35,936 nucleotides of DNA from a virus: the IMG/VR virus record IMGVR_UViG_3300020165_000070, positions 1 through 35,936 of that record; one strand, written 5' to 3'. Positions 23,910-35,936 of this stretch are shown here, one piece after another; position 1 is the stretch's first letter, and each line of letters opens with the position of its first letter. Under the pieces are notes generated by a model. That model was not told where the DNA came from and did not search any database. It saw nothing but the letters and a program-made list of their open reading frames with translations. The translations under genes were made by a program, and so were the position numbers.

Positions 23910-24511
23910 TGTCGTTTCTCCATTTCTTTTTCAATAGTTGATACAGCAAGCAAAACTTGCTCCGATAGTTTTTCGATATAATCTTTATCGCGCTTTACAC
24001 GAACAAGAACGTGAGGCATATCAGGATGGTAAGAAAAAAAGTCCCACCACTCTCTGCCTGTTACCCACATACAACCTTGGATTTGTTGATAGTATTTCTT
24101 TACGCCAGATTGCTTGTCGCGCCAATAGCCAGCTTGCGTAGTTTGAGCAGGACACTTAATCTCTAAGCCACCCTCACTAGAGTCACCGATTAATCCATCG
24201 GGACTACAGCCATAACTTTCGCTATCATCAAGAATAAAACCAAACTGATCGACTGTGTTACCGCTGATGAATTCGTAATCGGCCCTTGCTTCTGGCTCAA
24301 GTTCGTTGCCTCTTATCATGTGTTCATTCTGATAGTGCGGCTCAGATTTACCTGTAAGCCTTTCTCCAAGAAGCTGATTAATGTACCCACCAGCACTTGA
24401 AGAGGGCTTTCCCGTCATTGTGATAAGTTTTGAGAACATTGAGGCTGATGGCTTACCCAGACGGGCGGCAAGCCATTCTTCAGTGCCTTGTTCGTGCGGT
24501 GAGATAATCAT
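23906..24511 (-). CDS. YqaJ-family recombination exonuclease
   Basis: Lambda-Exo-like 5'-3' nuclease of 201 residues that makes single-stranded ends for annealing. The signatures are GTEEWLAARLGKPSAS at the N-terminus, RGNELEPEARADYEF (acidic residues near 70-74), CSPDGLIG with Asp105 and GLEIKCP with Glu117 and Lys119. Together these form the PD-(D/E)XK centre. The start overlaps the annealing-protein stop (ATGA). Confidence 0.93.
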   Translation of the reverse strand: MIISPHEQGTEEWLAARLGKPSASMFSKLITMTGKPSSSAGGYINQLLGERLTGKSEPHYQNEHMIRGNELEPEARADYEFISGNTVDQFGFILDDSESYGCSPDGLIGDSSEGGLEIKCPAQTTQAGYWRDKQSGVKKYYQQIQGCMWVTGREWWDFFSYHPDMPHVLVRVKRDKDYIEKLSEQVLLAVSTIEKEMEKRQ

Positions 24512-25098
24512 GCGGCTTTTAATTTCTTTTCGTTCAAAGCGGCAATTGCTCGATCAAACTGGCTGGCTAACAATTTATTAGCAGAGGCAACCTCAAAGTG
24601 CTTACAAAACGCTTTAACGTCTGTATTTGTTTCTTCAAGCAAATCAGTTAATGTTTTAAGCTGCATATCATCAATATACACAGATGGCTCCACTGCTAAC
24701 GATGCAGTATTCCCATCATCATCTTGTGTTGGCAATCCGCAAGCTGCTGACAACGCATATCTTCTAGCGTAGGTAAAGTTTGACCCTGCTCCATGCGCGC
24801 TTACCTTAACTAAAGGCATAGTAAATTCTGATTCAATCCATTCGCCAGATTTATGCATAATTCTAGTGATAACACCCATTCCCTCTGAGTTACTAATCGG
24901 GAATTGCATAAATGCTAGATCGTGATTGCAAAACGGTTGTTTTACAGCCTCAACTACAGCCATCAAATCTGCATAAGTTGATAATTTTCCGTTATTTTTA
25001 AAAGCTGGATTTTGTTTGTTGTTTATCACGCCACCCATTTCGGCTTGCGCTAAACAAAATGCTGCTGATATTTCTTTAATAGATTCAGATGTTTTCAT
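24508..25098 (-). CDS. erf: ERF-family single-strand annealing protein
   Basis: Recombinase that anneals homologous strands. The ERF domain is plain: SIKEISAAFCLAQAEMGGV, YADLMAVVEAVKQPFCNHDL, MQFPISNSEGMGVITRIMH and the diagnostic GAGSNFTYARRYALSAACGL. The 196-residue length is normal. It is followed within the same operon by YqaJ exonuclease and SSB. Confidence 0.93.
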   Translation of the reverse strand: MKTSESIKEISAAFCLAQAEMGGVINNKQNPAFKNNGKLSTYADLMAVVEAVKQPFCNHDLAFMQFPISNSEGMGVITRIMHKSGEWIESEFTMPLVKVSAHGAGSNFTYARRYALSAACGLPTQDDDGNTASLAVEPSVYIDDMQLKTLTDLLEETNTDVKAFCKHFEVASANKLLASQFDRAIAALNEKKLKAA

Positions 25099-25292
25099 TG
25101 TGATGTCCTCTCGCTTAACATTTGCTCAAGGACATATCGAGCCGAATAACCTCGCTCATAATCCCTGTGCATCCCTCGCTTGAACTGGTTGCCGTTTAGC
25201 GAGTCGGTTTCGCCTAAGAAAAAAGCCGTTATATTTGTCACATCCTTTTGCTCTTCTTCCATAAACTGATCAAACATTTTTAAAATATCCAT
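25095..25292 (-). CDS. Unknown early protein (65 aa)
   Basis: A 65-residue acidic-to-neutral protein beginning MDILKMFDQFMEEEQKDV and ending with RYVLEQMLSERTSQ. No family recognised. It overlaps the ERF start by 4 bp (ATGA) and follows the upstream gene by only 2 bp, so it is part of the recombination operon. It is probably helical with no membrane segments. Confidence 0.65.
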   Translation of the reverse strand: MDILKMFDQFMEEEQKDVTNITAFFLGETDSLNGNQFKRGMHRDYERGYSARYVLEQMLSERTSQ

Positions 25293-25294
25293 GA

Positions 25295-25624
25295 CTAACT
25301 CCTATGGTCGATTACGCGCTTGGCATAGCCTTCCAGTTGATCAAATACAATGTGACCGATGGACTCGAAATTCTTAGATGCGAACGCGTAAAGCAAAGCC
25401 TCTTCAACATCAGCTAGTCTCATCGCGTTTTGGCGCATATAAAAAAATGTGGTTGCGGCAGGGTAAGGTTCAGTCACTCCATCAACGCTCATGCCTTCCC
25501 ATAAAATTAATGGGTCAGCGAGGGTGTCGCAGATTTGCTCGTGACTTACGCCTTCATCTTCCAAGCCATATGGATTTGAATCATCCTCTGGCGGGTCTAC
25601 TCGATTGGGATTGTCTTTGTACAT
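25295..25624 (-). CDS. Unknown acidic early protein (109 aa)
   Basis: The start chosen is ATG 25624 (MYKDNPNRVDPPEDD) because GGGGAAC lies at the correct distance; a longer frame to 25684 overlaps the Cro-like gene. The acidic N-terminal region (DPPEDDSNPYGLEDE) is followed by helices (LADVEEALLYAFASKNF). No family recognised. It is the second gene of the leftward early operon. Confidence 0.6.
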   Translation of the reverse strand: MYKDNPNRVDPPEDDSNPYGLEDEGVSHEQICDTLADPLILWEGMSVDGVTEPYPAATTFFYMRQNAMRLADVEEALLYAFASKNFESIGHIVFDQLEGYAKRVIDHRS

Positions 25625-25637
25625 AATAATGTTCCCC

Positions 25638-25838
25638 TTATTGCTGATAAATTTCATCAGTTGATACCTCAAAATATTCAGCAAGTCTTAAAGCGGTATC
25701 GCGTGACGGTGTTTTAGTCACCCCAGAACACAGCTTTGAAATTGTTTGCTGACTAACGCCAGTGGCCTGAGCAATTTGAACTTGGCTCAAGCTGTTTGAG
25801 GCCATCATCTGCGTTAAAAAAGTGTTGCCTTGTTCCAT
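25638..25838 (-). CDS. Cro-like HTH regulator
   Basis: A 66-residue protein consisting of a single HTH domain of the Cro/C1 (XRE) type: SLSQVQIAQATGVSQQTISKL with a recognition helix near residues 28-40, then PSRDTALRLAEYFEV. Size and position suggest the Cro-like factor that turns off the repressor gene. It is the first gene of the leftward recombination-integration operon, unlike lambda, where cro heads the replication operon. The start follows AAGGA at a good distance. It faces the HTH gene at 25991 across three operators. Confidence 0.85.
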   Translation of the reverse strand: MEQGNTFLTQMMASNSLSQVQIAQATGVSQQTISKLCSGVTKTPSRDTALRLAEYFEVSTDEIYQQ

Positions 25839-25863
25839 AATATTTCCTTAAAAGTATTTCAGT

Positions 25864-25945
25864 AACGCGTACAAGCGTAACATTAAAAACTTAATGGTGC
25901 AACGCGTAAAAGCGTATTAATTTAAAAAACTTGCGTACAAGCGTA
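25864..25945. promoter_or_regulatory. Immunity operators O1-O3 between divergent regulators
   Basis: Three copies of a dyad ACGC-N6-GCGT. O1 is AACGCGTACAAGCGTA at 25864-25879, O2 is AACGCGTAAAAGCGTA at 25901-25916 and O3 is CTTGCGTACAAGCGTA at 25930-25945 (first arm imperfect). An extra half-site, AACGCG, is at 25961. Centres are 37 and 29 bp apart. The spacer is always GTANAA, so these are one binding-site family, for the repressor and Cro-like proteins. Confidence 0.8.
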
Positions 25946-25959
25946 CTTAAAGGTAATCT
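25931..25959 (+). promoter_or_regulatory. Rightward promoter of the repressor-like gene
   Basis: TTGCGT (25931-25936), a 17-bp spacer and TAATCT (25954-25959), about 32 bp before the ATG at 25991. O3 covers the -35 box, so the repressor or Cro-like protein would control it. No comparably good leftward promoter is seen; one must exist for the gene at 25838. Confidence 0.5.
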
Positions 25960-25990
25960 AAACGCGTTATTTGATAGAGTGTAAAAATCA

Positions 25991-26311
25991 ATGGAAATGG
26001 GTGATAGGGTTAAGCAAGCGCGGTTAAATGCCGGGATGACGCAAGCAATGCTCGCTAAAATCTCAGGCGTTGATCAGACCAGGATAAGCGCGATTGAGCT
26101 TAACAAGAATAAAAAAACAAGCTGCTTGATTGCGTTGGGTCAAGCAATGGGTGTCGATCCTACCTATTTGGAAACTGGCGTTTCCGAAGATGAAATTAAA
26201 GTTGATCACACCGCGTTGGAAAAAGAAATTTTAAATCTCATCATGCAGTTGTCTGATGATGATCGCGCTCGCGAAATCGCTTACATTCAAAAATTAATTG
26301 ACAAATCTTAA
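25991..26311 (+). CDS. Repressor-like HTH protein (C1 type)
   Basis: A 106-residue protein with an N-terminal XRE HTH domain (MGDRVKQARLNAGMTQAMLA, recognition helix in VDQTRISAIELNKN) and a short helical C-terminus. There is no LexA-type peptidase domain, so it would not be cleaved by RecA as lambda CI is; induction must work another way. The ribosome-binding site is weak (AGAGTG), fitting low expression. It is transcribed away from the Cro-like gene and is a candidate lysogeny repressor, although the two roles could be reversed. Confidence 0.75.
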   Translation: MEMGDRVKQARLNAGMTQAMLAKISGVDQTRISAIELNKNKKTSCLIALGQAMGVDPTYLETGVSEDEIKVDHTALEKEILNLIMQLSDDDRAREIAYIQKLIDKS

Positions 26312-26460
26312 CTGCTATTGACGCGCATTGCTGAAATAAGCGCAAGATTATAGTCGCGCACATATCGCTTGGCTGTTTCGTGTTCGTGTTGATTTTTTAG
26401 ACGAGAGAGAAGGTGTTGTTTTTGAGGGACACTGAGAAGTTTTAGGTTTTTTAAAATCAT
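26308..26460 (-). CDS. Possible small protein convergent to the repressor (50 aa)
   Basis: ATG 26460 opens a frame beginning MILKNLKLLSVPQKQHLL and ending ALISAMRVNSS; the stop overlaps the repressor stop on the other strand. It is basic and helical, with a codon pattern that looks coding. Its start lies just after the stop of the 38-residue frame upstream. No family recognised, and expression is unproven. Confidence 0.4.
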   Translation of the reverse strand: MILKNLKLLSVPQKQHLLSRLKNQHEHETAKRYVRDYNLALISAMRVNSS

Positions 26461-26461
26461 A

Positions 26462-26578
26462 TCATTTTCCACAACATTGCCCCCCTGAATCCGCCGCCCA
26501 CCACAGCATTTCTGCGGTCATTTGATGACAGCTCAAGCTTACGAGCGCATAGTAATTTGAATGCGTATTGACCATCAT
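26462..26578 (-). CDS. Possible small protein upstream of the 50-aa frame (38 aa)
   Basis: ATG 26578 after AAGGAATAAG opens a frame beginning MMVNTHSNYYALVSLSCH and ending DSGGQCCGK. The stop is next to the ATG of the following small frame. It has four Cys and a WW pair, which might bind a metal. It is transcribed away from the replication operon. No family recognised. Confidence 0.35.
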   Translation of the reverse strand: MMVNTHSNYYALVSLSCHQMTAEMLWWAADSGGQCCGK

Positions 26579-26772
26579 TTTTTCTTATTCCTTTTATTAG
26601 CATTTTTAATACCCTTTCACTCTGGCATACATTTGGGCATTCAGCAAATAAAAATACGCATTTGATTAAAAAAATACGCGTAGAAACGTAACAGTAGCTT
26701 TAACGCCTATTGCTATAACGCGTAAAAGCGTATATAGTTTGCTCAATAATTGCATAAAAAAGGGAAAGTTTA
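26579..26772. other. Non-coding control region ahead of the replication operon
   Basis: No gene of its own. It holds operators O5 and O6 and the early promoter, and separates possible leftward small frames from the rightward replication genes. Confidence 0.6.
26675..26738 (+). promoter_or_regulatory. Early rightward promoter with operators O5 and O6
   Basis: O5 (TACGCGTAGAAACGTA, 26675-26690) and O6 (AACGCGTAAAAGCGTA, 26717-26732) repeat the immunity dyad. O6 exactly fills the 17-bp spacer between TTGCTA (26710-26715) and TATAGT (26733-26738), a good promoter 35 bp before the GTG start of the replication gene. Binding at O6 would block it. Confidence 0.7.
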
Positions 26773-27423
26773 GTGCAAGAACGCGACTTCAAAGGAATAT
26801 GGATACCACGCGAGATATGGCTTGCAAGCGAACTGACCCTCCTAGAAAAGATTTTTTTAGTTGAAATAGACTCCCTAGACAACGAGCAAAATTGCTATGC
26901 ATCAAATGCATACTTTGCGGAATTCTTTGGCATTTCAAAAGGTCGATGCACTCAAATCATTAAGTCACTTGAGGCCAAGGGCTTTATACAGATTCAATTA
27001 ATCCGCGATAAAAACGTGATTACAAAGAGGGTCTTGAGGGTAGTTAATAAATTAAACACCCCCCTATCAAAAACTAAACAGGGGTATTTAGAAAATGCTG
27101 AAGGTAATAATACATCTCTTAATAATACAGATATAGGGGGCAATCCCCCCAAACGATTCACAAAACCTTCTCTTGCTCAAGTCACTGAGTACAAAAATCA
27201 AAATCAATATATCTCCGATCCACAGGCTTTTCTTGATTACCACGAAAGCAGGGGATGGGTAGTTGGTCGATCACCGATGAAAGATTGGAAAGGCGCATTC
27301 AGGCGGTGGGAAAGCAATGAAAAAAAATGGAGCAAAGAAAATGCAAATAAACAATCTGCTACAGAGCGCAGAAGTGACTACGCCTCAGGTCTCTACGACT
27401 ACAGGAAAGCTACAAACTTTTAG
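26773..27423 (+). CDS. Replication initiation protein, O-like
   Basis: GTG start with AGGGAAAG upstream. The 216-residue protein has an N-terminal winged-helix domain (FKGIWIPREIWLASELTLLE, then FFGISKGRCTQIIKSLEAKG) that would bind the origin. Next is a variable linker, and the C-terminus carries FLDYHESRGWVVGRSPMKDW and KGAFRRWE, a motif found in many phage O-type and DnaT-type proteins. The origin is probably within the linker coding region, as in lambda, but no clear iterons are seen. The end overlaps the next gene by about 100 bp. Confidence 0.8.
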   Translation: MQERDFKGIWIPREIWLASELTLLEKIFLVEIDSLDNEQNCYASNAYFAEFFGISKGRCTQIIKSLEAKGFIQIQLIRDKNVITKRVLRVVNKLNTPLSKTKQGYLENAEGNNTSLNNTDIGGNPPKRFTKPSLAQVTEYKNQNQYISDPQAFLDYHESRGWVVGRSPMKDWKGAFRRWESNEKKWSKENANKQSATERRSDYASGLYDYRKATNF

Positions 27424-27814
27424 TGATGATGATAAAGATGCGATTGCTTATTTTTTTATGCGACTTCAAAACACCTATGGTACGGCAAAGATGCAAAGCC
27501 AGTGGCCTGATGCTGAGAGTTTAAGTCTAGCTAGAAGAGAGTTTGGTAAACAGATTGCAAAGTTTAGTCGAGAGGAGATGGCAGAGGCATTTGATCTTGT
27601 ACACAAGGAAAAAAGGGCAGGCAATGATCGTTTCAGTTGGCCTGACATCGACGCAATCATCGGCTTGTTGACTAACGAGGGCGTGTTTACTGGGTCGGCA
27701 GGGACGTTGGCACATAAGCCCTATGTTGCTGAATTGCCAACCTGTACAGCGGCAGAGAGAAAAGAATTTGCAAAAAAGGGCATTGCAGAGTTGAGAGGTT
27801 TATTCGATGGGTGA
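27317..27814 (+). CDS. Helicase loader-like protein, P-like
   Basis: Second gene of the replication operon. The 165-residue protein contains DAIAYFFMRLQNTYGTAKM, ARREFGKQIAKFSREEMAEAF and FSWPDIDAIIGLL, a pattern reminiscent of lambda P-type proteins that load DnaB helicase. ATG 27317 follows GTGGGAAAG; ATG 27341 is another possible start. The long overlap with the O-like frame is unusual. Assignment rests on position and weak motif similarity. Confidence 0.65.
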   Translation: MKKNGAKKMQINNLLQSAEVTTPQVSTTTGKLQTFSDDDKDAIAYFFMRLQNTYGTAKMQSQWPDAESLSLARREFGKQIAKFSREEMAEAFDLVHKEKRAGNDRFSWPDIDAIIGLLTNEGVFTGSAGTLAHKPYVAELPTCTAAERKEFAKKGIAELRGLFDG

Positions 27815-28067
27815 TCCAAAATTGCCGAACAAATATAAATTCTTAGGTGATGATTCTCGATTCACATTTGGTTGTTCTTACACCAAGAACGAGATCATTG
27901 CGCGATCCGGTGGAAACGAGCATACGATTCGCAATCGCTTATCCAATCAGCGTGATTTTACGGAATATTTATTTAAAAGAAAATCCAAAGCGGTGCGTCC
28001 TGAAAGTGTCTGCGAAACAACGCTTGAAAAGTTTTCTGCCGGATGGCTAAAGCGGAGGTTGATTTGA
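27807..28067 (+). CDS. Unknown early protein (86 aa)
   Basis: A basic 86-residue protein with TFGCSYTKNEIIARSGGNEH and TIRNRLSNQRDFTEYLF; the middle may be a DNA-binding helix-turn-helix. It overlaps the P-like gene by 8 bp and the following gene by 4 bp. No family recognised. Confidence 0.6.
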   Translation: MGDPKLPNKYKFLGDDSRFTFGCSYTKNEIIARSGGNEHTIRNRLSNQRDFTEYLFKRKSKAVRPESVCETTLEKFSAGWLKRRLI

Positions 28068-28231
28068 GCATTGATGACGCAATAGCAAGGGTCAAGTTGA
28101 TCAACTCGATGGGTGACGATGCCTATATTTGCGAGAGAGGTGGTGCGCTTTGCGTCTTATCTGAGCATACGGTTAGGAATTGGGAAAACCGTAATGCCCA
28201 AGTGATCGAGATTTGTAAGGTGGCGCGATGA
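28064..28231 (+). CDS. Unknown small early protein (TTG start)
   Basis: The TTG at 28064 follows a perfect GGAGG at 28054-28058 and overlaps the upstream stop (TTGA), so it is preferred over the ATG at 28043, which has no good ribosome-binding site. The 55-residue product, SIDDAIARVKLINSMGDDAY and onward to RNWENRNAQVIEICKVAR, is not recognised. It lies in a chain of overlapping genes between replication and nin-type genes. Confidence 0.6.
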   Translation: MSIDDAIARVKLINSMGDDAYICERGGALCVLSEHTVRNWENRNAQVIEICKVAR

Positions 28232-28698
28232 GTGAACTTGGCTTATTGAGATATCCGGTGAGAATTGTTAACGATCATCAGAGAGATGAGTTAGCAAAAA
28301 GCATTCGCAGCATCGAGACATCTCTTAACAAACCTATCCTGGTCACTATTACAGACGCGCAAGAAAAGCGATCTCACGCCATTAATCGTCTAGCGCATAT
28401 GTGGTATGCGGACTGCGCTGAACAGGGTCGAGAGTATACGCCAGAGCAAATTAAGTGCCTCGCTAAATTGAAGTGGGGCGTTCCCATTATGCGGAAACAT
28501 AAAAAGTTTAATACCACTTGGATGAAGTTGGTTCACGCCTTTCCAGACTATGAGGAAAAGGTTGCGTTTATGGAATATCTGCCTGTGACTTCTTTGATGA
28601 CCAACCCAGAGATGAGCGAGTTTATGAATCACTTTCAGGCAGTGATGGGCAGTCGTTATGAGTTGACTGATCCTAGATTGCAGGGAATAGAGTTGTGA
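28228..28698 (+). CDS. NinB-like recombination protein
   Basis: A 156-residue protein with KPILVTITDAQEKRSHAINR followed by LAHMWYADCAEQGREYTPEQ, and basic patches such as RKHKKF. This resembles NinB (Orf), which stimulates strand annealing and replaces RecFOR functions in lambda. The similarity is limited to the N-terminal part, so NinB-like is the most that can be said. ATGA overlap with the upstream gene. Confidence 0.6.
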   Translation: MSELGLLRYPVRIVNDHQRDELAKSIRSIETSLNKPILVTITDAQEKRSHAINRLAHMWYADCAEQGREYTPEQIKCLAKLKWGVPIMRKHKKFNTTWMKLVHAFPDYEEKVAFMEYLPVTSLMTNPEMSEFMNHFQAVMGSRYELTDPRLQGIEL

Positions 28699-28907
28699 TT
28701 AGTTTAAAAGTATTTTACCTAACGAAAATTTATTGGCCTTTGCTAATGGTCAAGGTGCGACTGCTTGGGTTATGTAAAAAGGCTTACAAAGTTTACAACA
28801 CAAAGTTTAAGAAACATTGCCGTTGTGCGTACACGATCAAGCCCAGTTTGGTTGAGGTGGTTTGTGCTAATTGCGGTGGCATTCAAAAGCATAGCAGGTG
28901 GAAGTGA
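28695..28907 (+). CDS. Small basic protein with Cys cluster (70 aa)
   Basis: GTG start overlapping the previous stop (GTGA). The N-terminal half is hydrophobic and basic; the C-terminal half has CRCAY, VVCANCGGIQKHS, a potential zinc-binding ribbon. It ends just at the NinG start. Family not recognised. Confidence 0.55.
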   Translation: MISLKVFYLTKIYWPLLMVKVRLLGLCKKAYKVYNTKFKKHCRCAYTIKPSLVEVVCANCGGIQKHSRWK

Positions 28908-29335
28908 TGGCAAAGAAAAAACCGCCAACGATTGCTCAAGAGGTTGAAAAGGCAGCGGTGCTTTTGCAGAAACTGGTGCGACTAAAAGCCGCAGATGAGA
29001 ATGGAATGGTGAGTTGCGTGACCTGTGGCGTTACCAGAAAGTGGAACGATGAAATGCAGGGTGGTCATTTTTTTGAGCGTTCAAGAATAGCAACAAAGCT
29101 GACGGTTGAGAACGTCCATCCTCAATGCTCTGGATGTAACTGTTTCAAAATGAAAACAACAGGCGGGGTTCTTCAATACAGGAGATACATGGTTGAAATG
29201 TATGGCGAGAAGGGTGTTGACGAGTTAGAGGTGCTGTCAAGAAATATCAAGAAATACAACAGGCCAGAGGTTGCAGATATTAAAGCGGATTTTAAAAAGC
29301 AGATTAAATTTCACTCAGAAAGGATCGGGGCTTAA
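28907..29335 (+). CDS. ninG: NinG-family recombination protein
   Basis: The start used is ATG 28907 (MAKKKPPTIA). The 142-residue protein carries SCVTCGVTRKWNDEMQGGHF with Cys37, Cys40 and His54, then VENVHPQCSGCNCF with Cys74, Cys77 and Cys79, and LQYRRYMVEMYG. This is the signature of NinG/Rap, an endonuclease that acts on Holliday junctions and recombination intermediates. It lies in the nin-like part of the early operon. Confidence 0.88.
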   Translation: MAKKKPPTIAQEVEKAAVLLQKLVRLKAADENGMVSCVTCGVTRKWNDEMQGGHFFERSRIATKLTVENVHPQCSGCNCFKMKTTGGVLQYRRYMVEMYGEKGVDELEVLSRNIKKYNRPEVADIKADFKKQIKFHSERIGA

Positions 29336-29337
29336 AA

Positions 29338-30504
29338 ATGGAACATCTCAAAGAGTTTTGCACAGATCGACAGTTGGAAATTGTTGAGGCGGTGATTAAA
29401 TATCCTAATAAACAACTAGCGGCAAACGCGCTAGGAGTATCAAGAAGTACCGTCAGAAACGCAATTAAAGGCGTTGAGAAAAAAGCAGCGGCCAATGGGG
29501 TTGCTCCCCACCGGGATGTCAACCATCGCACGATGGAAGGATTCAACGCTAAATTTGTTACTAGCCGTTATGACGGTGAGGGCAATTTGCAAGGCCAGTA
29601 TGTTCGTCAGGAGCGAGAAAAGTTTGATCTTGAGGCAATGCTTGAGGACTTTAGGGATGGCTTAAAAGACGAATTGCAAGGGTTACACAAGCCCATTCCA
29701 AAGCCTGCGGATACCGTAGATAAATTAATGAATTGTTACATGATTGGCGATCATCATTTAGGGATGTACGCATGGTCAAAACAGACAGGAGAGGATAGTT
29801 ATGACACTGACATTGGCGTTAATATATTGGAAAGTGCTATCGATTCTCTCGTGGCTCGCAGTCCTGATTCTCGGCATGGCCTTTTGGTTAATCTTGGCGA
29901 TTTTTTCCACAGTAATAATATTAAAAGTGAAACAGGTTCTGGAACGCCTTTAGATTCTGATGGCCGTTATGGGCGAACAGTGAGAATGGGCATTAACCTG
30001 GTCAAGCGGTTAATTGTTCGGCTGTTGCAAAAGCATGAGGTTGTCACTGTTTTAAATGTTAGAGGTAATCACGACCCTGATGCGGCTCTGTGGTTAAACG
30101 AGGCGTTGAAAATGTACTTTGCCGATGATCCTCGCGTCACGATTCCTGATAACTACGATAAGTTTACGCACCTTGAGTTTGGCAATTCTCTGATTGTTAC
30201 CCATCACGGAGACAAAATAAACCCGCAACGAATCTATGAGTCAGTTACCCGGAAACTAGCAGTTGAGTGGGGCAGATCAAAATATCGCTTTGGGTGGTTG
30301 GGGCATCTTCATCATAAAGAGGCCAAAGAAATTGGCGGGATGATGTTTGAGCAGTGGAACGTGTTGGCTGCACCAGATGCGTGGCATTCAGGTTCAGGGT
30401 TTGGCTCATCTCGCTCAATGACTTGCGTGGTTCTTTCAGAAGAATATGGCGAGGACAGCCGGGTCATTATTAACCCTGATCGAATTGAGGGGGAGCGCCA
30501 ATGA
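29338..30504 (+). CDS. Metallophosphoesterase with N-terminal HTH
   Basis: A 388-residue protein. Residues 8-45 resemble a helix-turn-helix (RQLEIVEAVIKYPNKQLAAN, ALGVSRSTVRNAI). The calcineurin-like phosphoesterase domain follows, with IGDHHLG (Asp138, His140), NLGDFFHS (Asp188), VRGNHD (Asn244, His245), THHGD and WLGHLHHKE, all metal-binding motifs. It probably acts on DNA, like the nucleases of the SbcD/Mre11 type, and may process recombination or replication intermediates. Length and HTH fusion are seen in other phage homologues. Confidence 0.85.
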   Translation: MEHLKEFCTDRQLEIVEAVIKYPNKQLAANALGVSRSTVRNAIKGVEKKAAANGVAPHRDVNHRTMEGFNAKFVTSRYDGEGNLQGQYVRQEREKFDLEAMLEDFRDGLKDELQGLHKPIPKPADTVDKLMNCYMIGDHHLGMYAWSKQTGEDSYDTDIGVNILESAIDSLVARSPDSRHGLLVNLGDFFHSNNIKSETGSGTPLDSDGRYGRTVRMGINLVKRLIVRLLQKHEVVTVLNVRGNHDPDAALWLNEALKMYFADDPRVTIPDNYDKFTHLEFGNSLIVTHHGDKINPQRIYESVTRKLAVEWGRSKYRFGWLGHLHHKEAKEIGGMMFEQWNVLAAPDAWHSGSGFGSSRSMTCVVLSEEYGEDSRVIINPDRIEGERQ

Positions 30505-30542
30505 AAACAAAGGAGCGGCAAGAGGGCGAAATATGGATTTAG
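30501..30542 (+). CDS. Possible 13-residue leader peptide
   Basis: ATG 30501 overlaps the stop of the phosphoesterase gene (ATGA) and opens MKTKERQEGEIWI before TAG. It runs into the start of the next gene at 30533, whose ribosome-binding site (GAGGG) lies within it. It may act only to couple translation. Confidence 0.25.
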   Translation: MKTKERQEGEIWI

Positions 30543-30715
30543 GATACAGGGAAAAAAAAGGCGGTGTTGACATATCTATCAGCATCAAGGGCGATGATAA
30601 GAGCGAGGAGCTAAAAGAGGCCGTTGCTCGATCTTTGCAGTTTTTAAACCGCGTGGGCAAAAAAATGCTGATTACTGGCGAAATGGAAAAATTGATTCTG
30701 GAGTGCAGACGATGA
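30533..30715 (+). CDS. Unknown small early protein (60 aa)
   Basis: ATG 30533 after GAGGGC is preferred to a longer frame that begins inside the phosphoesterase gene. The product is MDLGYREKKGGVDISISIKG, then charged DDKSEELKEAVARSLQFL and a hydrophilic end. No family recognised. Overlap with the next gene is ATGA. Confidence 0.55.
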   Translation: MDLGYREKKGGVDISISIKGDDKSEELKEAVARSLQFLNRVGKKMLITGEMEKLILECRR

Positions 30716-30924
30716 TTGATTTTGAGGCTGATTTTAATTCATGTATTGATAACGATTGGTTTGATTTACAAAAGAAATACTGGAACATCATGGCAACGGC
30801 CAAGGGTGATGTCAGGCACAACGCTTTGTTGTCGTTGCGCGATGAGGTGACTGTTAGAGTGCTGAAACTGCCGCCCAGTGAAGAAGAAGTCATGGCGCAC
30901 AACCCTGCAATGTCTGATGATTAG
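30712..30924 (+). CDS. Unknown small early protein (70 aa)
   Basis: ATG 30712 (MIDFEADFNSCIDNDW) in an ATGA overlap with the previous gene; the last codons overlap the next start. The product is acidic and contains a helical ATAKGDVRHNALLSLRDEV stretch. No family recognised. Confidence 0.55.
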   Translation: MIDFEADFNSCIDNDWFDLQKKYWNIMATAKGDVRHNALLSLRDEVTVRVLKLPPSEEEVMAHNPAMSDD

Positions 30925-31087
30925 ACTCTTGCGCTTTTTGGTGGCGCTCCCGATTGCCTTGATCGGCCTTTTTGTTCTTTTAATTGCAACATTGATCGGC
31001 CTTTTTGTTGTTTTAATTGCAACATTATTTGTCTGGATCGGTTTTTATCTTGTTGATTTTGCAAATTGGTTAAATGAGCATGAGTGA
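30917..31087 (+). CDS. Small membrane protein with duplicated segment (56 aa)
   Basis: The start is ATG 30917 (MIRLLRFLVALPIALIG). Almost the whole protein is hydrophobic, and an 11-residue unit LIGLFVLLIAT occurs twice in tandem, followed by LFVWIGFYLVDFANWL. It would span the membrane once or twice. It sits just before the Q-like gene, overlapping its start. Unknown function. Confidence 0.6.
   Translation: MIRLLRFLVALPIALIGLFVLLIATLIGLFVVLIATLFVWIGFYLVDFANWLNEHE
30959..31024 (+). repeat. 33-bp tandem duplication inside the membrane gene
   Basis: Two 33-bp units, 30959-30991 and 30992-31024, differ at one base (C/G). The frame is kept, so the protein gains exactly one 11-residue hydrophobic repeat. 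The near identity suggests a recent event. Confidence 0.85.
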
Positions 31088-31616
31088 ATTAATGGCAATG
31101 TTATCCGCAGGCAGTCCCCCGCTTGCATCCATCAGAGGATCATCTGGCTCTAAAATCTCAGCCAGTGATGTGGCGGCTTGCCTCACTGCCCTAGATAGGC
31201 ACACATATCTGTTCGGTTTGGCTAAGTTTTCACTTGATGACAGTTCAAGACAAGAATTAAACACCCTAGCTGTCTTAATGGCTCGTAAACACCACTTTAA
31301 ACGCCTTCCAAGCGAATCTAAGCGCGTTCCCGATCTACTTGGACTCGTTGCATTAAGGTTGGCTATCGGTGCTAATAAATGCCCCAAATGCCACGGAGTG
31401 GGTCAAGTTAAATCAGACAGTGAATTGATACAATGCCCTGCTTGTGGTGGTGAGGGCGAAAAGAAACTAAGCATCCGAAAGTTAGAGAAAATATTAGGTG
31501 TTTCCCGATGGCGCTCAGAAAAAGTATGGCAACCCCGACTCACTATTTTACTATCGGAGTATGCCGTGATGGATTCAGATATTAGCCAAGCTATTCATCA
31601 AGGCTTGCGAGAGTGA
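31074..31616 (+). CDS. Late antiterminator, Q-like
   Basis: The last gene of the rightward early operon. The 180-residue protein has a zinc-finger region with Cys103, Cys106, Cys121 and Cys124 (CPKCHGVGQV and CPACGGEG), followed by LSIRKLEKILGVSRWRSEKV, the HTH-like end of the lambdoid antitermination Q family (PF06530-type). It would load on RNA polymerase at the late promoter upstream of the lysis and head genes and let it pass terminators. Its 3' end overlaps a leftward HTH gene. Confidence 0.82.
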   Translation: MSMSELMAMLSAGSPPLASIRGSSGSKISASDVAACLTALDRHTYLFGLAKFSLDDSSRQELNTLAVLMARKHHFKRLPSESKRVPDLLGLVALRLAIGANKCPKCHGVGQVKSDSELIQCPACGGEGEKKLSIRKLEKILGVSRWRSEKVWQPRLTILLSEYAVMDSDISQAIHQGLRE

Positions 31617-31770
31617 CAAGTTGATTCATTGCTAGTGCTGTCTGCTTTTGGATGGGGTGATCTTGCTCAAGCCTAATGATCTGCCTATTGGTTAGACCTA
31701 GCTTTTCTGCAAGCTGTAATTGAGTTAAGCCCAACTGTTGTCGGGCTTTTTTAAATTCAGAATTAGTCAT
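31591..31770 (-). CDS. Small HTH (XRE) regulator
   Basis: Frame from ATG 31770, MTNSEFKKARQQLGLTQLQL then AEKLGLTNRQIIRLEQ and onward to LVTLASLDE, 59 residues. It is a complete Cro/C1-type helix-turn-helix with the recognition helix in LTNRQIIRLEQ. It is the last gene of the leftward cassette operon and converges on the Q-like gene, overlapping it by 26 bp. The ribosome-binding site is poor. It could regulate the cassette operon. Confidence 0.75.
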   Translation of the reverse strand: MTNSEFKKARQQLGLTQLQLAEKLGLTNRQIIRLEQDHPIQKQTALAMNQLVTLASLDE

Positions 31771-31792
31771 TTTTATAAAATTAAAATTGATG

Positions 31793-31972
31793 TTAATGGT
31801 AAAGCAATTTCATTAATTGCTGTTTCAGTACAGGTGCGAAGAGTGCTTCTAGACCTTGTTTCAAATCACTGGTACGCTTCCACCCTTTTTCCAAACAAGG
31901 AGAACCAGAGAAAAGCTCTAGCACCTTACTGCTTAACTCTACCTCCGTCATCATATCTATTAATCTAGTCAT
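31793..31972 (-). CDS. Unknown cassette protein (59 aa)
   Basis: ATG 31972 with a perfect AGGAGG eight bases upstream opens MTRLIDMMTEVELSSKVLEL then FSGSPCLEKGWKRT. Upstream in-frame codons are inside the neighbour, so the short form is used. The start overlaps the stop of the upstream gene (31965). Unrecognised; one Cys, mixed charge, probably helical. Confidence 0.6.
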   Translation of the reverse strand: MTRLIDMMTEVELSSKVLELFSGSPCLEKGWKRTSDLKQGLEALFAPVLKQQLMKLLYH

Positions 31973-32240
31973 TCGCTTGCCTCCTCGTTTTTTCTTGCTG
32001 AAAATCGCCTTTCTCCAGTTCGTTTTCAGCAAGAGTCTCTCTGACAAACTCCACGTCATACCCTCCGTTAGCTTCTTCGTAACCTAAAGTTTTAACAGAC
32101 CCGCAAGTATCGCATCGGTATTCTTTTTTGGGAGGGTCGCACATTAACAACTTATTAGGGTTAGGGACGATCTTGCCACAACACCTAACTACTTTTTGTG
32201 TAAATCCGGTAACTTTATATTCATGATTATAAATCTGCAT
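31965..32240 (-). CDS. Zinc-ribbon cassette protein (intact copy)
   Basis: A 91-residue protein with paired cysteines: VVRCCGKIV, LMCDPP and YRCDTCGSVK, forming a probable zinc ribbon, followed by an acidic C-terminal part (EFVRETLAENELEKGD). ATG 32240 follows GGAGAGAGTG. Its first 40 codons and upstream site are repeated exactly at the left edge of the window. Function unknown. Confidence 0.7.
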   Translation of the reverse strand: MQIYNHEYKVTGFTQKVVRCCGKIVPNPNKLLMCDPPKKEYRCDTCGSVKTLGYEEANGGYDVEFVRETLAENELEKGDFQQEKTRRQAND

Positions 32241-32246
32241 CACTCT
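32120..32246. repeat. 127-bp exact direct repeat, copy 2
   Basis: Identical to positions 1-127. Spans the start region of the intact zinc-ribbon cassette gene and its ribosome-binding site. Confidence 0.9.
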
Positions 32247-32427
32247 CTCCTGTTAAAGCCCCTTGCGACCACAGCGGGGCAGACTGCTTATAGCCTATCG
32301 GTCATCAATGCGCGAGTCTTACGCACTAATTTTAAACGCAATTTGCTTGAGTTTAAACCTTTCCATTTAGCTGAAACCCTTACGCTGATTGGCGTACAGA
32401 GTTTTTATTTCAACGCAATTCTGTTAG
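32247..32427. other. Non-coding gap in the cassette island with operator-like dyad
   Basis: About 180 bp without a plausible gene, unusual in this densely packed island. It contains TACGC-TGATTG-GCGTA (32381-32396), a perfect match to the arms of the immunity operators, though with a different spacer. It lies upstream of the zinc-ribbon gene and could be a promoter region for the last three cassette genes. Confidence 0.4.
32381..32396. promoter_or_regulatory. Operator-like dyad TACGC-N6-GCGTA
   Basis: Same arms and spacing as O1-O6 (ACGC-N6-GCGT), with matching flanking T and A, but the spacer TGATTG is not the GTANAA seen elsewhere. Could recruit the phage repressor. One such match could arise by chance in 36 kb. 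Confidence 0.3.
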
Positions 32428-32463
32428 TTACTCTTCTCCTGCTTCGGGTGTTTTATCTTTCAT
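32428..32463 (-). pseudogene. Possible mini-ORF relic of the MxDKEL family (11 aa)
   Basis: ATG 32463 inside the end of the DUF551 gene opens MKDKTPEAGEE. The first four codons (ATG AAA GAT AAA) match the start of the 33985-34599 gene, and the last ones (GGA GAA GAG T) are a cassette ribosome-binding site without its ATG. It may be what remains after the cassette and the next start were deleted. The match is short. Confidence 0.3.
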
Positions 32464-32698
32464 AACGCTTCCCCCTTGGAGGTTCGGGCCACGGCATCCA
32501 GTATTTAACCTCTAACGAATATCCTTCACTCTCTTCACTCTCTTCACCGCATAAGTCGTACCATGCCCCGCTCCCGAACTTATAGCAAACCATGCTTACA
32601 GTAACTAAACCTGTAAGAGAGTATCTATCTTCCACGCAACCAATCACAGGTTCACCATGTACCTCTGGCAGTCTATCTTTAACACTTATCCACTTCAT
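32453..32698 (-). CDS. DUF551-family protein
   Basis: ATG 32698 (MKWISVKDRLPEVHGEPVIG) gives an 81-residue product ending in VKYWMPWPEPP. The W-I-S-V-x-D-R-L-P start and W-M-P-x-P-E-P-P end define the small DUF551 family, common in phage accessory regions. Function unknown. TGATG overlap with the upstream membrane gene. Confidence 0.85.
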   Translation of the reverse strand: MKWISVKDRLPEVHGEPVIGCVEDRYSLTGLVTVSMVCYKFGSGAWYDLCGEESEESEGYSLEVKYWMPWPEPPRGKRYER

Positions 32699-32922
32699 CA
32701 CTCTCTCCTAGTTGTTTTTTCTACTGATGCGTTAAAAACTACAACCGCAAGACCATAAAATGCTGAAAGCAAAAACGCTAATAAACAGACAAGCAGAGTG
32801 GACTCAAAGCCTTCTTTTCTAACAAAAATTCCCGACATTTCAAAAAAAAGGAATTGAGTTAACAATATAACCCCTGTAATTATAAAAAGTGCTTTAGGTA
32901 CAACATAACTTATTTTATTCAT
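32698..32922 (-). CDS. Two-TM cassette membrane protein, copy 1
   Basis: A 74-residue protein with two hydrophobic segments (about residues 9-30, FIITGVILLTQFLFF, and 43-63, LLVCLLAFLLSAFYGLAVVVF). Almost identical to the copy at 33539-33769 in protein and DNA. ATG follows GGAGAGAGTG. Function unknown; its retention in two copies suggests use or very recent duplication. Confidence 0.7.
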   Translation of the reverse strand: MNKISYVVPKALFIITGVILLTQFLFFEMSGIFVRKEGFESTLLVCLLAFLLSAFYGLAVVVFNASVEKTTRRE

Positions 32923-32932
32923 CACTCTCTCC
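32730..32932. repeat. Duplicated segment of about 200 bp, copy 1
   Basis: Closely matches 33581-33780 with few substitutions and a 3-bp difference in the A-rich stretch. Covers most of the membrane-protein gene and its start junction. Confidence 0.85.
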
Positions 32933-33305
32933 TCATCCTTCCATTAAGTAGCTCAGGGTTTTCGTATATGTTGCCTAGAATTTCTGGGAAATCACCTTCC
33001 ATTGCGCTATCAGAGTACGAATTGTCGCAAAATAACTCAGGGTTTTCGTAAATAACGCCATAGTCTGGGGTGATTTTAACTTCTACCACGCCCAATCCAG
33101 CAACGAGGACAATATCACCCTCATAGATTTCAGCGCCTTTTGAGTCCTTCACGCCAGTGTATTGCCGTCTAGCTATTAGGTTGTATCCACCCACTGCAAA
33201 ATATTCGCTATGGCAATTCTCAATCTCGTCGAGCGTGTAGCGTAGGTCAAGCAACTTCCCTGCTTCTTCGCGCTGACACATATAGCTAAATTTAATTTCT
33301 CTCAT
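32922..33305 (-). CDS. YopX-family protein
   Basis: A 127-residue protein beginning MREIKFSYMCQREEAGKLLD with the family core QYTGVKDSKGAEIYEGDIVL and the end LGNIYENPELL, diagnostic for YopX proteins of phages. Its molecular role is not known. The start follows AAGGAGAAGAGTG. The end (MRRE) is encoded by the ribosome-binding site of the next cassette. Confidence 0.88.
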   Translation of the reverse strand: MREIKFSYMCQREEAGKLLDLRYTLDEIENCHSEYFAVGGYNLIARRQYTGVKDSKGAEIYEGDIVLVAGLGVVEVKITPDYGVIYENPELFCDNSYSDSAMEGDFPEILGNIYENPELLNGRMRRE

Positions 33306-33552
33306 CACTCTTCTCCTTAGAATTCAATAAATTATCAACAAGACACCCCACTGAGGTATAGTAAACGCCTTCGTTATGATCAAAATGAGCTTCCATTTGC
33401 TTGTTAAGTTTTTCACATTCGGCTTGGGCGAGTTCCAACGTGGCGTAGGTTACTGGTGGGTGTAAGGGCCAAATGTGGTTAGTAGCATTATTTTCTTCTA
33501 GGTAAAGAACGTCCCAGCCACCACTTCTATTTCTCATTTCAACGTATCTCAT
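33292..33552 (-). CDS. Unknown cassette protein (86 aa)
   Basis: ATG 33552 (MRYVEMRNRSGGWDVLYLEE) after AAGGAGGGAAGTG. The product has VTYATLELAQAECEKLNKQM, suggesting a small alpha/beta fold. It ends in LLNSKEKSDERN, encoded by the overlap with the YopX start. No family recognised. Confidence 0.6.
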   Translation of the reverse strand: MRYVEMRNRSGGWDVLYLEENNATNHIWPLHPPVTYATLELAQAECEKLNKQMEAHFDHNEGVYYTSVGCLVDNLLNSKEKSDERN

Positions 33553-33769
33553 CACTTCCCTCCTTGTTTTTTCTTGATGCGTTAAAAACTACAACCGCAA
33601 GACCATAAAATGCTGAAAGCAAAAACGCTATAAAACAGACAAGCAGAGTGGACTCAAAGCCTTCTTTTCTAACAAAAATTCCCGACATTTCAAAAAGAAA
33701 TTGAGTTAAAAATATAACCCCTGTAATTATAAAAAGTGCTTTAGCTACAACATAACTTATTTTATTCAT
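33539..33769 (-). CDS. Two-TM cassette membrane protein, copy 2
   Basis: A 76-residue near-duplicate of the protein at 32698-32922, with the same two membrane segments and the same N-terminus (MNKISYVVAKALFIITG). It differs by small indels and a longer tail (RKNKEGSDEIR), which reads through the next ribosome-binding site. Confidence 0.7.
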   Translation of the reverse strand: MNKISYVVAKALFIITGVIFLTQFLFEMSGIFVRKEGFESTLLVCFIAFLLSAFYGLAVVVFNASRKNKEGSDEIR

Positions 33770-33780
33770 CACCGCTCTCC
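33581..33780. repeat. Duplicated segment of about 200 bp, copy 2
   Basis: See copy 1 at 32730-32932. The duplication includes the start junction, as expected if the cassette was copied as a unit. Confidence 0.85.
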
Positions 33781-34004
33781 CTAGTGACTGGCCCTATTGT
33801 TCCCATAACTGTCACCATGTTGCCTTTTAATTTCTCGTCAAATTGGAGGGCATTAACTTTAGATGATATATATGTAGCATTTCCGGCACTGTCGTATTGC
33901 ATTATAGAGAGCTTTGAATTAGCGTCGCGCACAACAACAGCCACGAGTGCTAAGTCTCGCTTATTCAAATCACTTATAATTTCTTCATAGCTTATAGCTT
34001 CCAT
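33762..34004 (-). CDS. Unknown cassette protein (80 aa)
   Basis: ATG 34004 (MEAISYEEIISDLNKRDLAL) after AAGGAGAAGGGTG. Strand-rich C-terminal part (VVVRDANSKLSIMQYD, NMVTVMGTIGPVTRESGDE). Family not recognised. The last residues SGDE come from the next ribosome-binding site. Confidence 0.6.
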   Translation of the reverse strand: MEAISYEEIISDLNKRDLALVAVVVRDANSKLSIMQYDSAGNATYISSKVNALQFDEKLKGNMVTVMGTIGPVTRESGDE

Positions 34005-34599
34005 CACCCTTCTCCTTAGCATTCAAATAATCCAGTAAAGGTTGGACGTTCTTTTTATCAGTTAGGACTGATCTAAAACTCTTATCAAGAACACACCGCC
34101 CCCAATAAAACCAAACACCGGCTATATGATCAAAAGCAACTCCATATTTAGCCTGATTCTTGTCTTTCCAATCCACCACCTGATCAGGCTCAAGGTTCAA
34201 CACAGCTTGCAGTACCATGTTGTATCGTTGTTGGTACTTAGCGGCTTTCTCTGCTTGGACTTGAGTTTTGTAGACGTTGTGGTGCTTCAATCTCTCATTT
34301 GTGAGAAACCCTACCTCATAGGATGAACAATTATCCCGATTGCAGACACCAACTAGAACGCTCCCTGATATGTACCAATACTCTTCACCCTTTTCCGGCT
34401 CCCACACAATGCTTTTGGGTTCGGACTGTAGTTCTGCAACACGCTCGACTAACCGTTGTATTATCTCTTTATCGTTCCGCCGTATATCTTCTCGATACTT
34501 TTGTCGAAAATGTCCGTGATCGTCGCCAGACGCGTAGTTGTAGTTTTCTAAACGCTTTTCAAACCTCAACGCCTCTTCGATTAATTCTTTATCTTTCAT
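33985..34599 (-). CDS. MxDKEL cassette protein B (204 aa)
   Basis: The start is ATG 34599 (MKDKELIEEALRFEKRLENY) after AAAAGGAGAAAGGCG; upstream in-frame codons belong to the junction. The centre carries KSIVWEPEKGEEYWYIS, and the C-terminal half has QAEKAAKYQQRYNMVLQAVL and NLEPDQVVDWKDKNQAKYG, leading to FYWGRCVLDKSF and LLDYLNAKEKGDG. It is a clear paralogue of 34885-35400. The WEPxKGEEYW core is frequent in phage proteins of unknown function. Possibly a modular host-interaction protein. Confidence 0.7.
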   Translation of the reverse strand: MKDKELIEEALRFEKRLENYNYASGDDHGHFRQKYREDIRRNDKEIIQRLVERVAELQSEPKSIVWEPEKGEEYWYISGSVLVGVCNRDNCSSYEVGFLTNERLKHHNVYKTQVQAEKAAKYQQRYNMVLQAVLNLEPDQVVDWKDKNQAKYGVAFDHIAGVWFYWGRCVLDKSFRSVLTDKKNVQPLLDYLNAKEKGDGSYKL

Positions 34600-34892
34600 C
34601 GCCTTTCTCCTTTTACTGACGCGCATAAAATTTCAGCTTTATCAAGAACCGCTTTACAATGTTCTAGCATTGAGTAATCTGCGTCACTTAATCCAATACA
34701 AGACGACAGTTCTCTTATCACTAGATGCATATCTTTATAATGCCCGACTAGCACCCACTTTTCTTTTTGCACTTCGCCTTTTTTCTTTCCCTTAGCAATT
34801 AGTTTTTGAGGGATAAACTTTAAAAGAGTGTGATTCCATTTATCAATTTCAACTTTAAATTTTGAATTTATATGTACCGTTTGATTACTCAT
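34596..34892 (-). CDS. Unknown cassette protein (98 aa)
   Basis: ATG 34892 (MSNQTVHINSKFKVEIDKWN) after GAAGGAGAAAGGCG. Features are TLLKFIPQKLIAKGKKKGEV, then EKWVLVGHYKDMHLVIRELS and a charged C-terminal helix. It resembles a type of short phage protein with an INxKYxI start and a WxxxGxY centre, found also in Gram-positive phages; function unknown. Overlaps both neighbours. Confidence 0.6.
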   Translation of the reverse strand: MSNQTVHINSKFKVEIDKWNHTLLKFIPQKLIAKGKKKGEVQKEKWVLVGHYKDMHLVIRELSSCIGLSDADYSMLEHCKAVLDKAEILCASVKGERR

Positions 34893-35400
34893 CGCCTTTC
34901 TCCTTCGCGTTTAGATAATCCAGTAATGGTTGGACGTTCTTTTTATTCGTGAGTGGTGCGTGTAAATTATCAACAATATAATAATCTGAATAAAACCAAC
35001 GCCCACTTTTATTATTAAACACAACTCCATATTTAGCCTGATTCATGTCTTTCCAATCCACCACCTGATCAGGTTCAAGATTTAGTACAGCTTGCAATAC
35101 CATGTTGTATCTCCTCTGATACTTAGCGGCTTTCTCTGCTTGGCCTTGGGTTTTATAGGCGTTGTGGTGTATTAGCAAGTTCCAATCTTCCTCGCCGTCC
35201 CTCCATTCTGTGTCGTCCAAAGTTCCGTCAATATCCACATACCAATACTCTTCAGCCTTTTTCGGCTCCCAGACAATGCTTTTGGGTGCAGGTTGTAGTT
35301 CTTCAACACGCTCGACTAGCCTACATATTGTCTTTGCATGGTGACATGGTAATAGCTTTGCGAACTCCAGCGCCACTGCCATTAATTCTTTATCTTCCAT
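34885..35400 (-). CDS. MxDKEL cassette protein A (171 aa)
   Basis: Start ATG 35400 (MEDKELMAVALEFAKLL) after GAAGGAGAAGAGTG; the frame continues further upstream but lacks a good start there. It shares KSIVWEPKKAEEYWYV and QAEKAAKYQRRYNMVLQAVL with protein B, while the segments between them are different, so the family is mosaic. It ends in LLDYLNAKEKGDE, through the next ribosome-binding site. Confidence 0.7.
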   Translation of the reverse strand: MEDKELMAVALEFAKLLPCHHAKTICRLVERVEELQPAPKSIVWEPKKAEEYWYVDIDGTLDDTEWRDGEEDWNLLIHHNAYKTQGQAEKAAKYQRRYNMVLQAVLNLEPDQVVDWKDMNQAKYGVVFNNKSGRWFYSDYYIVDNLHAPLTNKKNVQPLLDYLNAKEKGDE

Positions 35401-35458
35401 CACTCTTCTCCTTCGAGTCTTTAACCCAATTAATGTAGCTAAATTTAATTTCTCGCAT
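35390..35458 (-). pseudogene. Mini-ORF relic of a YopX gene (22 aa)
   Basis: ATG 35458 opens MREIKFSYINWVKDSKEKSD, then GR and stop. MREIKFSY is identical to the YopX start at 33305, and VKDSK equals an internal part of YopX, so a deletion probably joined the two. The frame then runs through the ribosome-binding site of protein A (AAGGAGAAGAGTGATGG). Confidence 0.55.
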
Positions 35459-35508
35459 ATCACTCTCCTTGTTTTATTGCCCCCGAACATCAGAATTTAA
35501 GTATTTGC

Positions 35509-35936
35509 TCACTTAAACCTGTACTCCATTAGCACCTTCCACAAACTTTCAATATCTAGCAGATCATGATGTTTCATGACGCACCTAGAGCCATAGCCAA
35601 AGTCTTTTTGGAAATGTGAACTCCCAAACTTCTTACGACTGATCCAACCATTAACTCGCATCACCTCTGGGTCGCTAGTCCGACCAACCAAAACAGCAAT
35701 CTTTGATTTGAATTTATCCATGTTGTCAAAGATCAGGTTGCCAAACTCTGCATTGTTAAACTTCACATCGATGCTCACGCCCTCAAACCAAAGGTCAACA
35801 CCACCATCGGTCACTACGTTGACGGTAGGCGTCTCTACCCCAAGTAATCGAGCAACAGCGAACTCTGCCTTAAAGCCATAGATGTTTGCCTCTACCCTGC
35901 TTTGCCTGTCGTTCTCTAGCCTTGGCTTGAAGCCCT
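35509..35936 (-). CDS. PD-(D/E)XK-like nuclease/resolvase (5' end missing)
   Basis: The frame is open from the right edge of the window to the stop at 35509, so the gene is partial; a GTG at 35814 is probably internal. The visible 142 residues show YGFKAEFAVARLLGVE (a Glu-bearing helix), then TDGGVDLWFEGVSIDVKF, an Asp...Asp-x-Lys pattern (VD...DVK) typical of PD-(D/E)XK nucleases. This is followed by NLIFDNMDKFKSKIAVLVGR. It could be a phage resolvase or restriction-like nuclease. It is the most upstream visible gene of the cassette operon. Confidence 0.65.
   Translation of the reverse strand, partial: GFKPRLENDRQSRVEANIYGFKAEFAVARLLGVETPTVNVVTDGGVDLWFEGVSIDVKFNNAEFGNLIFDNMDKFKSKIAVLVGRTSDPEVMRVNGWISRKKFGSSHFQKDFGYGSRCVMKHHDLLDIESLWKVLMEYRFK

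Follow-up and report, generated by a model that had tools for sequence, protein, structure and literature searches.

Shared C-terminal tails in a phage cassette array are translations of a repeated ribosome-binding seam

The window analysed here is the whole 35,936-nucleotide stretch of the virus record IMGVR_UViG_3300020165_000070, at whose right end small minus-strand genes, here called cassettes, form a string that extends from about 35400 down to 31793. Several of the cassette proteins end in much the same residues. The original prediction, made from the sequence alone, listed five such tails, and all five are present on the minus strand: KKEKSDADL (108-368), SKEKSDERN (33292-33552), AKEKGDGSYKL (33985-34599), AKEKGDE (34885-35400) and KEGSDEIR (33539-33769). 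Each tail is indeed the translation of the Shine-Dalgarno sequence and first codons of the next gene, whose start it overlaps by 8-20 nucleotides (nt). The list was incomplete, as RESGDE, KGERR, RRE (twice) and RRQAND also come from overlapping junctions, three of them in another frame. The proteins had been called otherwise unrelated, but those at 33985-34599 and 34885-35400 are paralogues (63% identical), so that the five tails amount to four independent cases. The cassettes, and the copies of the seam, as we call the DNA shared by the junctions, are listed below (aa, amino acids).

35398 to 35413, minus strand: seam AAGGAGAAGAGTGATG ahead of the D1-family cassette, inside a 22-codon frame and read there as MREIKFSYINWVKDSKEKSDGR
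34885 to 35400, minus strand: D1-family cassette, 171 aa, tail LNAKEKGDE, 8-nt overlap with the next start
34890 to 34905, minus strand: seam AAGGAGAAAGGCGATG, read by the upstream gene as KEKGDE
34596 to 34892, minus strand: cassette MSNQTVHINSK, 98 aa, tail KGERR in the other frame, 4-nt overlap (ATGA)
34597 to 34612, minus strand: seam AAGGAGAAAGGCGATG, the identical 16 nt, read by the upstream gene as KGERR
33985 to 34599, minus strand: D1-family paralogue, 204 aa, tail AKEKGDGSYKL, 20-nt overlap
33762 to 34004, minus strand: cassette MEAISYEE, 80 aa, tail RESGDE, 8-nt overlap
33539 to 33769, minus strand: cassette MNKISYV copy 1, 76 aa, tail SRKNKEGSDEIR, 14-nt overlap
33292 to 33552, minus strand: cassette MRYVEMRN, 86 aa, tail SKEKSDERN, 14-nt overlap
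32922 to 33305, minus strand: YopX-family cassette, 127 aa, tail NPELLNGRMRRE in the other frame, 1-nt overlap (TGATG)
32698 to 32922, minus strand: cassette MNKISYV copy 2, 74 aa, tail SVEKTTRRE in the other frame, 1-nt overlap
32453 to 32698, minus strand: DUF551 cassette, 81 aa, tail RGKRYER, 212-nt gap and no overlap with the next gene
31965 to 32240, minus strand: cassette MQIYNHEYK, 91 aa, tail RRQAND, divergent seam, 8-nt overlap; its first part is duplicated at 1-121
108 to 368, minus strand: cassette MKKIIAYT, 86 aa, tail KKEKSDADL, 14-nt overlap with the left MQIYNHEYK copy; contigs L135 and L136 have the same order

There are ten overlapping junctions. Nine belong to the right-end string; the tenth, at the left end, is formed by gene 108-368 and the second copy of MQIYNHEYK. 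When up to three mismatches were allowed, AAGGAGAAGAGTGATG matched the window seven times and all seven matches lay at cassette starts, with 0.38 matches expected and none of 100 shuffles reaching seven. The motif G[TC]GATG ends 10/10 array starts (35400 to 32240) versus 2/38 other starts, and the mean pairwise identity of positions -16 to -1 is 0.56 for the array starts versus 0.29 for the others; both comparisons use hand-made lists, in which the starts at 31972 (GCGAATG, the eleventh of the string, which does not fit) and 368 were placed among the 38. At all ten junctions the stop and start overlap and the Shine-Dalgarno sequence lies inside the upstream gene, the arrangement of termination-reinitiation coupling.

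At seven junctions, those whose upstream genes end at 34885, 33985, 33762, 33539, 33292, 31965 and 108, the frame used yields K/R-E-x-S/G-D, or RRQAND in the case of the divergent seam at 31965. The remaining three (34596, 32922 and 32698) are read in another frame and give KGERR, RRE and RRE. The identical 16 nt AAGGAGAAAGGCGATG is translated as KEKGDE at 34890-34905 and as KGERR at 34597-34612. Similarly, in another phage, L009, AGGAGAAGAGTGATG gives RGEE at one junction and sits within KEKSD at others. One seam thus yields two peptides in two frames, indicating that the tail is not kept as a peptide.

The tails also follow the neighbouring gene. The two copies of MNKISYV in the window (93% identical over 239 nt) differ in the tail only, because different genes come next: MRYVEM follows copy 1, which ends SRKNKEGSDEIR, and the DUF551 gene follows copy 2, which ends SVEKTTRRE. 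The D1 paralogues share LNAKEKGD and part at the codons of the next gene, with GDE before MSNQT and GDGSYKL before MEAISYEE. The D1 relative in L009, also before MEAISYEE, ends KEKSDGSYKL, and those in L006 and L007, before another gene, end KEKENG. Between L009 and L010, a difference at codon 3 of one downstream gene shifts the upstream stop (EKSDG versus EKSDGWCT).

The comparison of synonymous and non-synonymous changes, proposed with the original prediction, revealed synonymous positions frozen to the ribosome-binding sequence and residues that vary. Within AAGGAG in the window tails, lysine is AAG in 5/5 and glutamate is GAG in 6/6, against 30/85 and 34/96 in the gene bodies; a hand calculation puts this bias at a chance of about 1e-5, or about 9e-5 with paralogues counted once. 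The spacer residues that follow AAGGAG are K, G or S and then S or G. In addition, YopX homologues in named phages were examined in 5 of the 275 records with a match, and they end NPELLNDK (two), NPELLQETK, NPELLSEE and NPELLK, none of the five with the RRE of the window protein, which ends NPELLNGRMRRE. In the NPELLQETK homologue the stop is directly followed by the start of the next gene, so a ribosome-binding site may underlie these final residues as well. The tails are translations of a nucleotide seam, not a peptide tag, and they change with neighbour or frame.

Other phage groups have seams of their own. A scan with AAGGAGAAGAGTGATG returned at least 118 stretches, and those passing a seam-density filter were looked at. 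L095, L100, L115, L118, L125, L026, L108, L073 and L121 were chosen for containing AAGGAGAAGAGTGATG, so the copy of AAGGAGAAGAGTGATG in them is a selection effect. The seam GGAGGTGAGTGATG with GGE tails is found in L095, L100, L115 and L121, and the seam AAGGAGAAAGAGTGATG with KEKE tails in L118, L125, L026 and L108; these sequences are group-specific, though all are strong Shine-Dalgarno sequences. In L125 (1876-3718), L118 and L108, several cassettes share their first eight residues, MDIVERLR, after the seam and then diverge; homology across these junctions thus extends to at least 30 nt and may lengthen a crossover region.

One GGAGGTGAGTGATG-type cassette, found at 68 loci, resembles a protein that one phage record lists as pyrimidine dimer DNA glycosylase/endonuclease V. 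The loci were split by hand into 30 closer ones (at least 56% identity) and 38 others, and their tails were also sorted by hand. Among the closer loci, 13/30 have a TGATG start and end GGE (9), GGQ (2), GDE (1) or GVE (1). The remaining 17 differ in their junctions and show none of these endings; examples are GEQS and GGEQ, each ahead of a -4 start, and QKRKNDNA, ahead of a -8 start. Two of the 17, with no downstream ATG and Shine-Dalgarno by the criteria used, end WWPQ and WWPQTPSP. None of the 38 more distant loci ends GGE.

Codon and breakpoint tests used 22 of the 68 loci (the closer, longer ones; some are near-identical contigs). Their 132 TGATG junctions with a Shine-Dalgarno sequence represent 85 upstream families, separated by similarity of the last 30 residues, and 57/85 end GGE. 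The codons in these 57 families are GGA in 57, GGT in 55 and GAG in 55, compared with body usages of 22%, 27% and 60%. As this count required an upstream Shine-Dalgarno sequence and was therefore biased, it was repeated on all GGE-ending open reading frames without the filter. Then 97 frames of at least 40 aa (66 families; GGA 63, GGT 62, GAG 64) end GGE, with none of that length on the opposite strand. An ATG frame of at least 35 codons, or running off the locus, starts at -26 to +12 in 93/97 of them.

The coincidence of seams with mosaic breakpoints is an addition beyond the original prediction. Among the 22 contigs, 291 de-duplicated homology-block ends were found, and 153/291 lie within -25 to +10 of a start, intervals that make up 8.8% of the arrays. 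An initial contrast gave 67/101 GGAGGTGA boundaries versus 66/321 others; since it included doubtful gene calls, it was redone with strong Shine-Dalgarno controls. A homology end is carried by 65/66 seam boundaries, 42/60 other strong Shine-Dalgarno boundaries and 22/43 weak ones (GGAGGTGAGTG group), where the seam class allows four near-identical variants and only boundaries adjoining a homologous block were counted. The difference between seam and other strong Shine-Dalgarno boundaries has a Fisher P of 5e-6, calculated on related contigs. By these counts, seams interrupt the homology between related phage contigs more frequently than other gene boundaries do. This coincidence was seen in the GGAGGTGAGTG group, and in the kin of the window as single cases only: homology between the window and L009 stops at 33762, a junction, and two different genes lie upstream of MQIYNHEYK, their sequences diverging at the Shine-Dalgarno sequence.

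The nearest known kind is the short conserved boundary sequences of lambdoid phages, reportedly described by Clark et al. in 2001 (HK620). In the window, too, different genes meet at several boundaries that have a short piece of DNA in common. The lambdoid sequences are located in a nin-like region, which does not hold for the array: a NinG-family gene of the window lies at 28898-29335 on the plus strand, and the array lies beyond it on the minus strand. The lambda proteins ninB, ninC, ninG and ninI end GDRAA, GREAA, RSEAA and GEGA, a weaker tail effect, and start-region identity from lambda P to Q is 0.36 versus 0.56 in the window array. Unlike the lambdoid sequences, the seam hardly varies within a phage group, is particular to that group and recurs at many junctions. 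Integron gene cassettes, which have a spacer with an attC site between cassettes, were rejected: 8/9 examined neighbour pairs in the window overlap and one has a 212-nt gap (attC was not searched for).

Several published systems share single features with the array. Lambdoid boundary sequences are likewise short shared sequences at gene boundaries and are proposed sites of homologous exchange (PMC3029335, PMC3233612). The start-associated sequence (SAS) of Cluster K mycobacteriophages is, like the seam, a repeated AGGAG-containing sequence at the ribosome-binding position before many gene families, and upstream stop codons can lie inside it (PMC3203893). It consists of GGGATAGGAGCCC and, unlike the seam, has paired inverted repeats at about half of the sites; shared protein tails, a feature of the array, are not mentioned for SAS in the excerpts of PMC3203893. 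It was rejected as a candidate, as GGGATAGGAGCCC has one window match with three mismatches (4.32 expected), outside the array. In the Cluster I mycobacteriophage Island3, the neighbouring genes 67 and 68 share 18 C-terminal residues through about 50 bp, taken as a trace of recombination; this is a single case with a longer repeat and not an array-wide seam, and the excerpts of PMC3029335 do not describe it as a ribosome-binding site. Termination-reinitiation coupling involves ATGA/TGATG overlaps with a Shine-Dalgarno sequence in the upstream gene, as here, but PMC6728339 covers gene pairs in general, whereas here one seam is repeated between many unrelated genes, and the overlaps also reach 8-20 nt, beyond the ATGA/TGATG type. 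A search of titles and abstract starts in open-access PMC articles found no description of shared C-terminal tails arising from ribosome-binding seams.

Based on the junctions, the paired copies and the breakpoints, we propose, with a probability of about 0.7, that these are cassette arrays with a lineage-specific ribosome-binding seam, which keeps the next gene translated and at which genes are exchanged. In these arrays small phage cassettes lie head to tail, almost spacer-free, and the 3' end of each gene contains both the ribosome-binding site and the start codon of the one that follows. The last codons of a gene are therefore the translation of the start region of the next, and different proteins end alike because the seam is nearly fixed within a phage group. 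Through a strong Shine-Dalgarno sequence and the stop/start overlap, the seam would ensure that a newly inserted gene is translated; in other systems, such coupling was measured for 13/14 gene pairs (PMC6728339). With less confidence, the common seam may guide or ease cassette-swapping crossovers, perhaps with the phage's own ERF/YqaJ system at work; the SSB, YqaJ and ERF genes (PF00436, PF09588, PF04404) at 23514-25098 on the minus strand are likely a phage annealing-recombination set. In phage D3 the Erf/exonuclease pair roughly equals lambda Red in recombining substrates that are identical or 78% identical, and the minimal pairing segment of Red-beta is 23-27 bp (PMC3945230). A bolder and more doubtful version is that some phage lineages each have an assembly standard of their own, in which an invariant ribosome-binding seam doubles as crossover site. 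A cassette flanked by the seam of the lineage could then be inserted and translated at once, the lineage seam would help to decide the exchange partners, and the tails would serve as a readable fingerprint.

Several observations weigh against the proposed exchange at a translated seam. The seam of 14-17 nt is shorter than the Red-beta minimum, so its identity alone may not suffice for recombination; either similarity in the flanks or selection following illegitimate joining would be needed as well. The contigs are related, and the breakpoint figures are thus counts and not independent trials. Within the window, junction 31965 has a divergent seam and gene 32453 has none, and gene calls are heuristic throughout. 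Moreover, the breakpoints at 42 of the 60 other strong Shine-Dalgarno boundaries are what selection at gene edges would give. This last point belongs to an explanation by translation only, in which each group has a ribosome-binding site suited to its host, the overlap saves space and couples translation, recombinants not joined at gene edges are lost, and the seam has no role in recombination. In its favour, GGAGGTGA is the full complement of the 16S rRNA 3' end. Stop/start overlaps with an intragenic Shine-Dalgarno sequence are common in prokaryotes (PMC6728339), and PMC3233612 states this model for phages generally. However, the seams are group-specific despite all being strong Shine-Dalgarno sequences, a GTG ahead of the ATG is kept at window junctions where it provides no stop for the upstream frame, and seam boundaries exceed the other strong Shine-Dalgarno ones in breakpoints. 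We therefore regard translation alone as an improbable account, though one to be taken seriously.

That a KEKSDE-type tail is selected as a functional C-terminal tag, with the overlap secondary, was the other half of the original prediction, and it failed where the by-product of the junction passed the frame, paired-copy, codon and homologue tests. Apart from the five look-alike tails, the tag could claim part of the 4/97 GGE tails that lack a long downstream frame and also count against an origin at the seam. Two of these four have an ATG with frames of 8 and 14 codons. The other two, L153 and L154, keep GGE and the Shine-Dalgarno sequence with only a 12-codon GTG frame and no downstream ATG, so the case named beforehand as refuting the junction origin, a tail kept without a downstream start, does occur; they have the same downstream DNA and are counted as one event, and we read all four as probable scars of lost cassettes. 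The homologue comparison otherwise went as expected for a by-product: the five YopX homologues are without the RRE tail, and in the 68-locus family the tail follows the downstream junction. As the same 16 nt give two peptides, paired copies have different tails, and synonymous positions are frozen while residues vary, the tag was rejected and is very improbable. Least probable is common descent, in which the cassette proteins are paralogues and the tails are conserved ends. Two duplicate pairs, the D1 paralogues and the MNKISYV copies, do exist in the window, but other cassettes match different families (YopX, DUF551) or none, the tails come from two frames, the MNKISYV copies are alike except for the tail, and in the second group GGE is common to 57 of the 85 upstream families.

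The window itself may be composite. Bases 1-127 repeat 32120-32246 exactly, one copy standing at the very start of the contig. In L135 and L136 this 127-nt stretch comes after window 32080-32119 and before window 128-160; they run from 32246 straight into 128. Provided that everything else matches the window, this implies a circle of 32,119 bp. Among the phages of the collection, the closest terminases (52.5-53.6% identical) belong to Pelagibacter phages, which measure 31.6-32.5 kb. The 3.7 kb to the right of 32246 match L004/L066 (99.7% over 4083 nt), a phage contig that otherwise shares only about 100 nt with the window (11.8 kb compared). Thus the window may be an assembly chimera at the shared 127-mer (32246), or a true recombinant, of a phage of about 32.1 kb and the array of another phage. 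As each half is backed by another contig, the junction analysis holds either way.

The D1-family cassette at 34885-35400 has no Pfam, PHROG or PADLOC match, and none of ten array proteins matched a defence gene in PADLOC at E 0.01. Relatives of the D1 family were found neither in the genome contig collection, in a search limited to six peptide patterns, nor in the phage collection by tblastn, and window 23000-35936 had no megablast match in the phage collection. Just before the right-hand MQIYNHEYK seam, at 32245-32290 on the minus strand, a GCCCC...GGGGC inverted repeat followed by TTT looks terminator-like by eye. A short frame at 35413-35470 combines the beginning of the YopX cassette (MREIKFSY) with an end resembling that of an L009 gene (NWVKDSKEKSD); it looks like a scar where two cassettes met. 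Elsewhere, the stretch 21700-21760, next to the integrase gene (21882-23057), was taken for the 3' part of a tRNA gene, which would make it a possible attachment site; ARAGORN found no whole tRNA there. A tandem 33-nt repeat, 97% identical, lies at 30959-31024 within a small membrane-type open reading frame.

Shared C-terminal tails offer a cheap marker for cassette arrays, and they warn against taking such endings for protein motifs. It is an old question whether phage mosaicism is guided by short boundary sequences or arises at random and is then cleaned by selection, and PMC3029335 and PMC3233612 present both models. With many seams per genome, group-specific sequences and mappable breakpoints, these arrays make the question directly testable.

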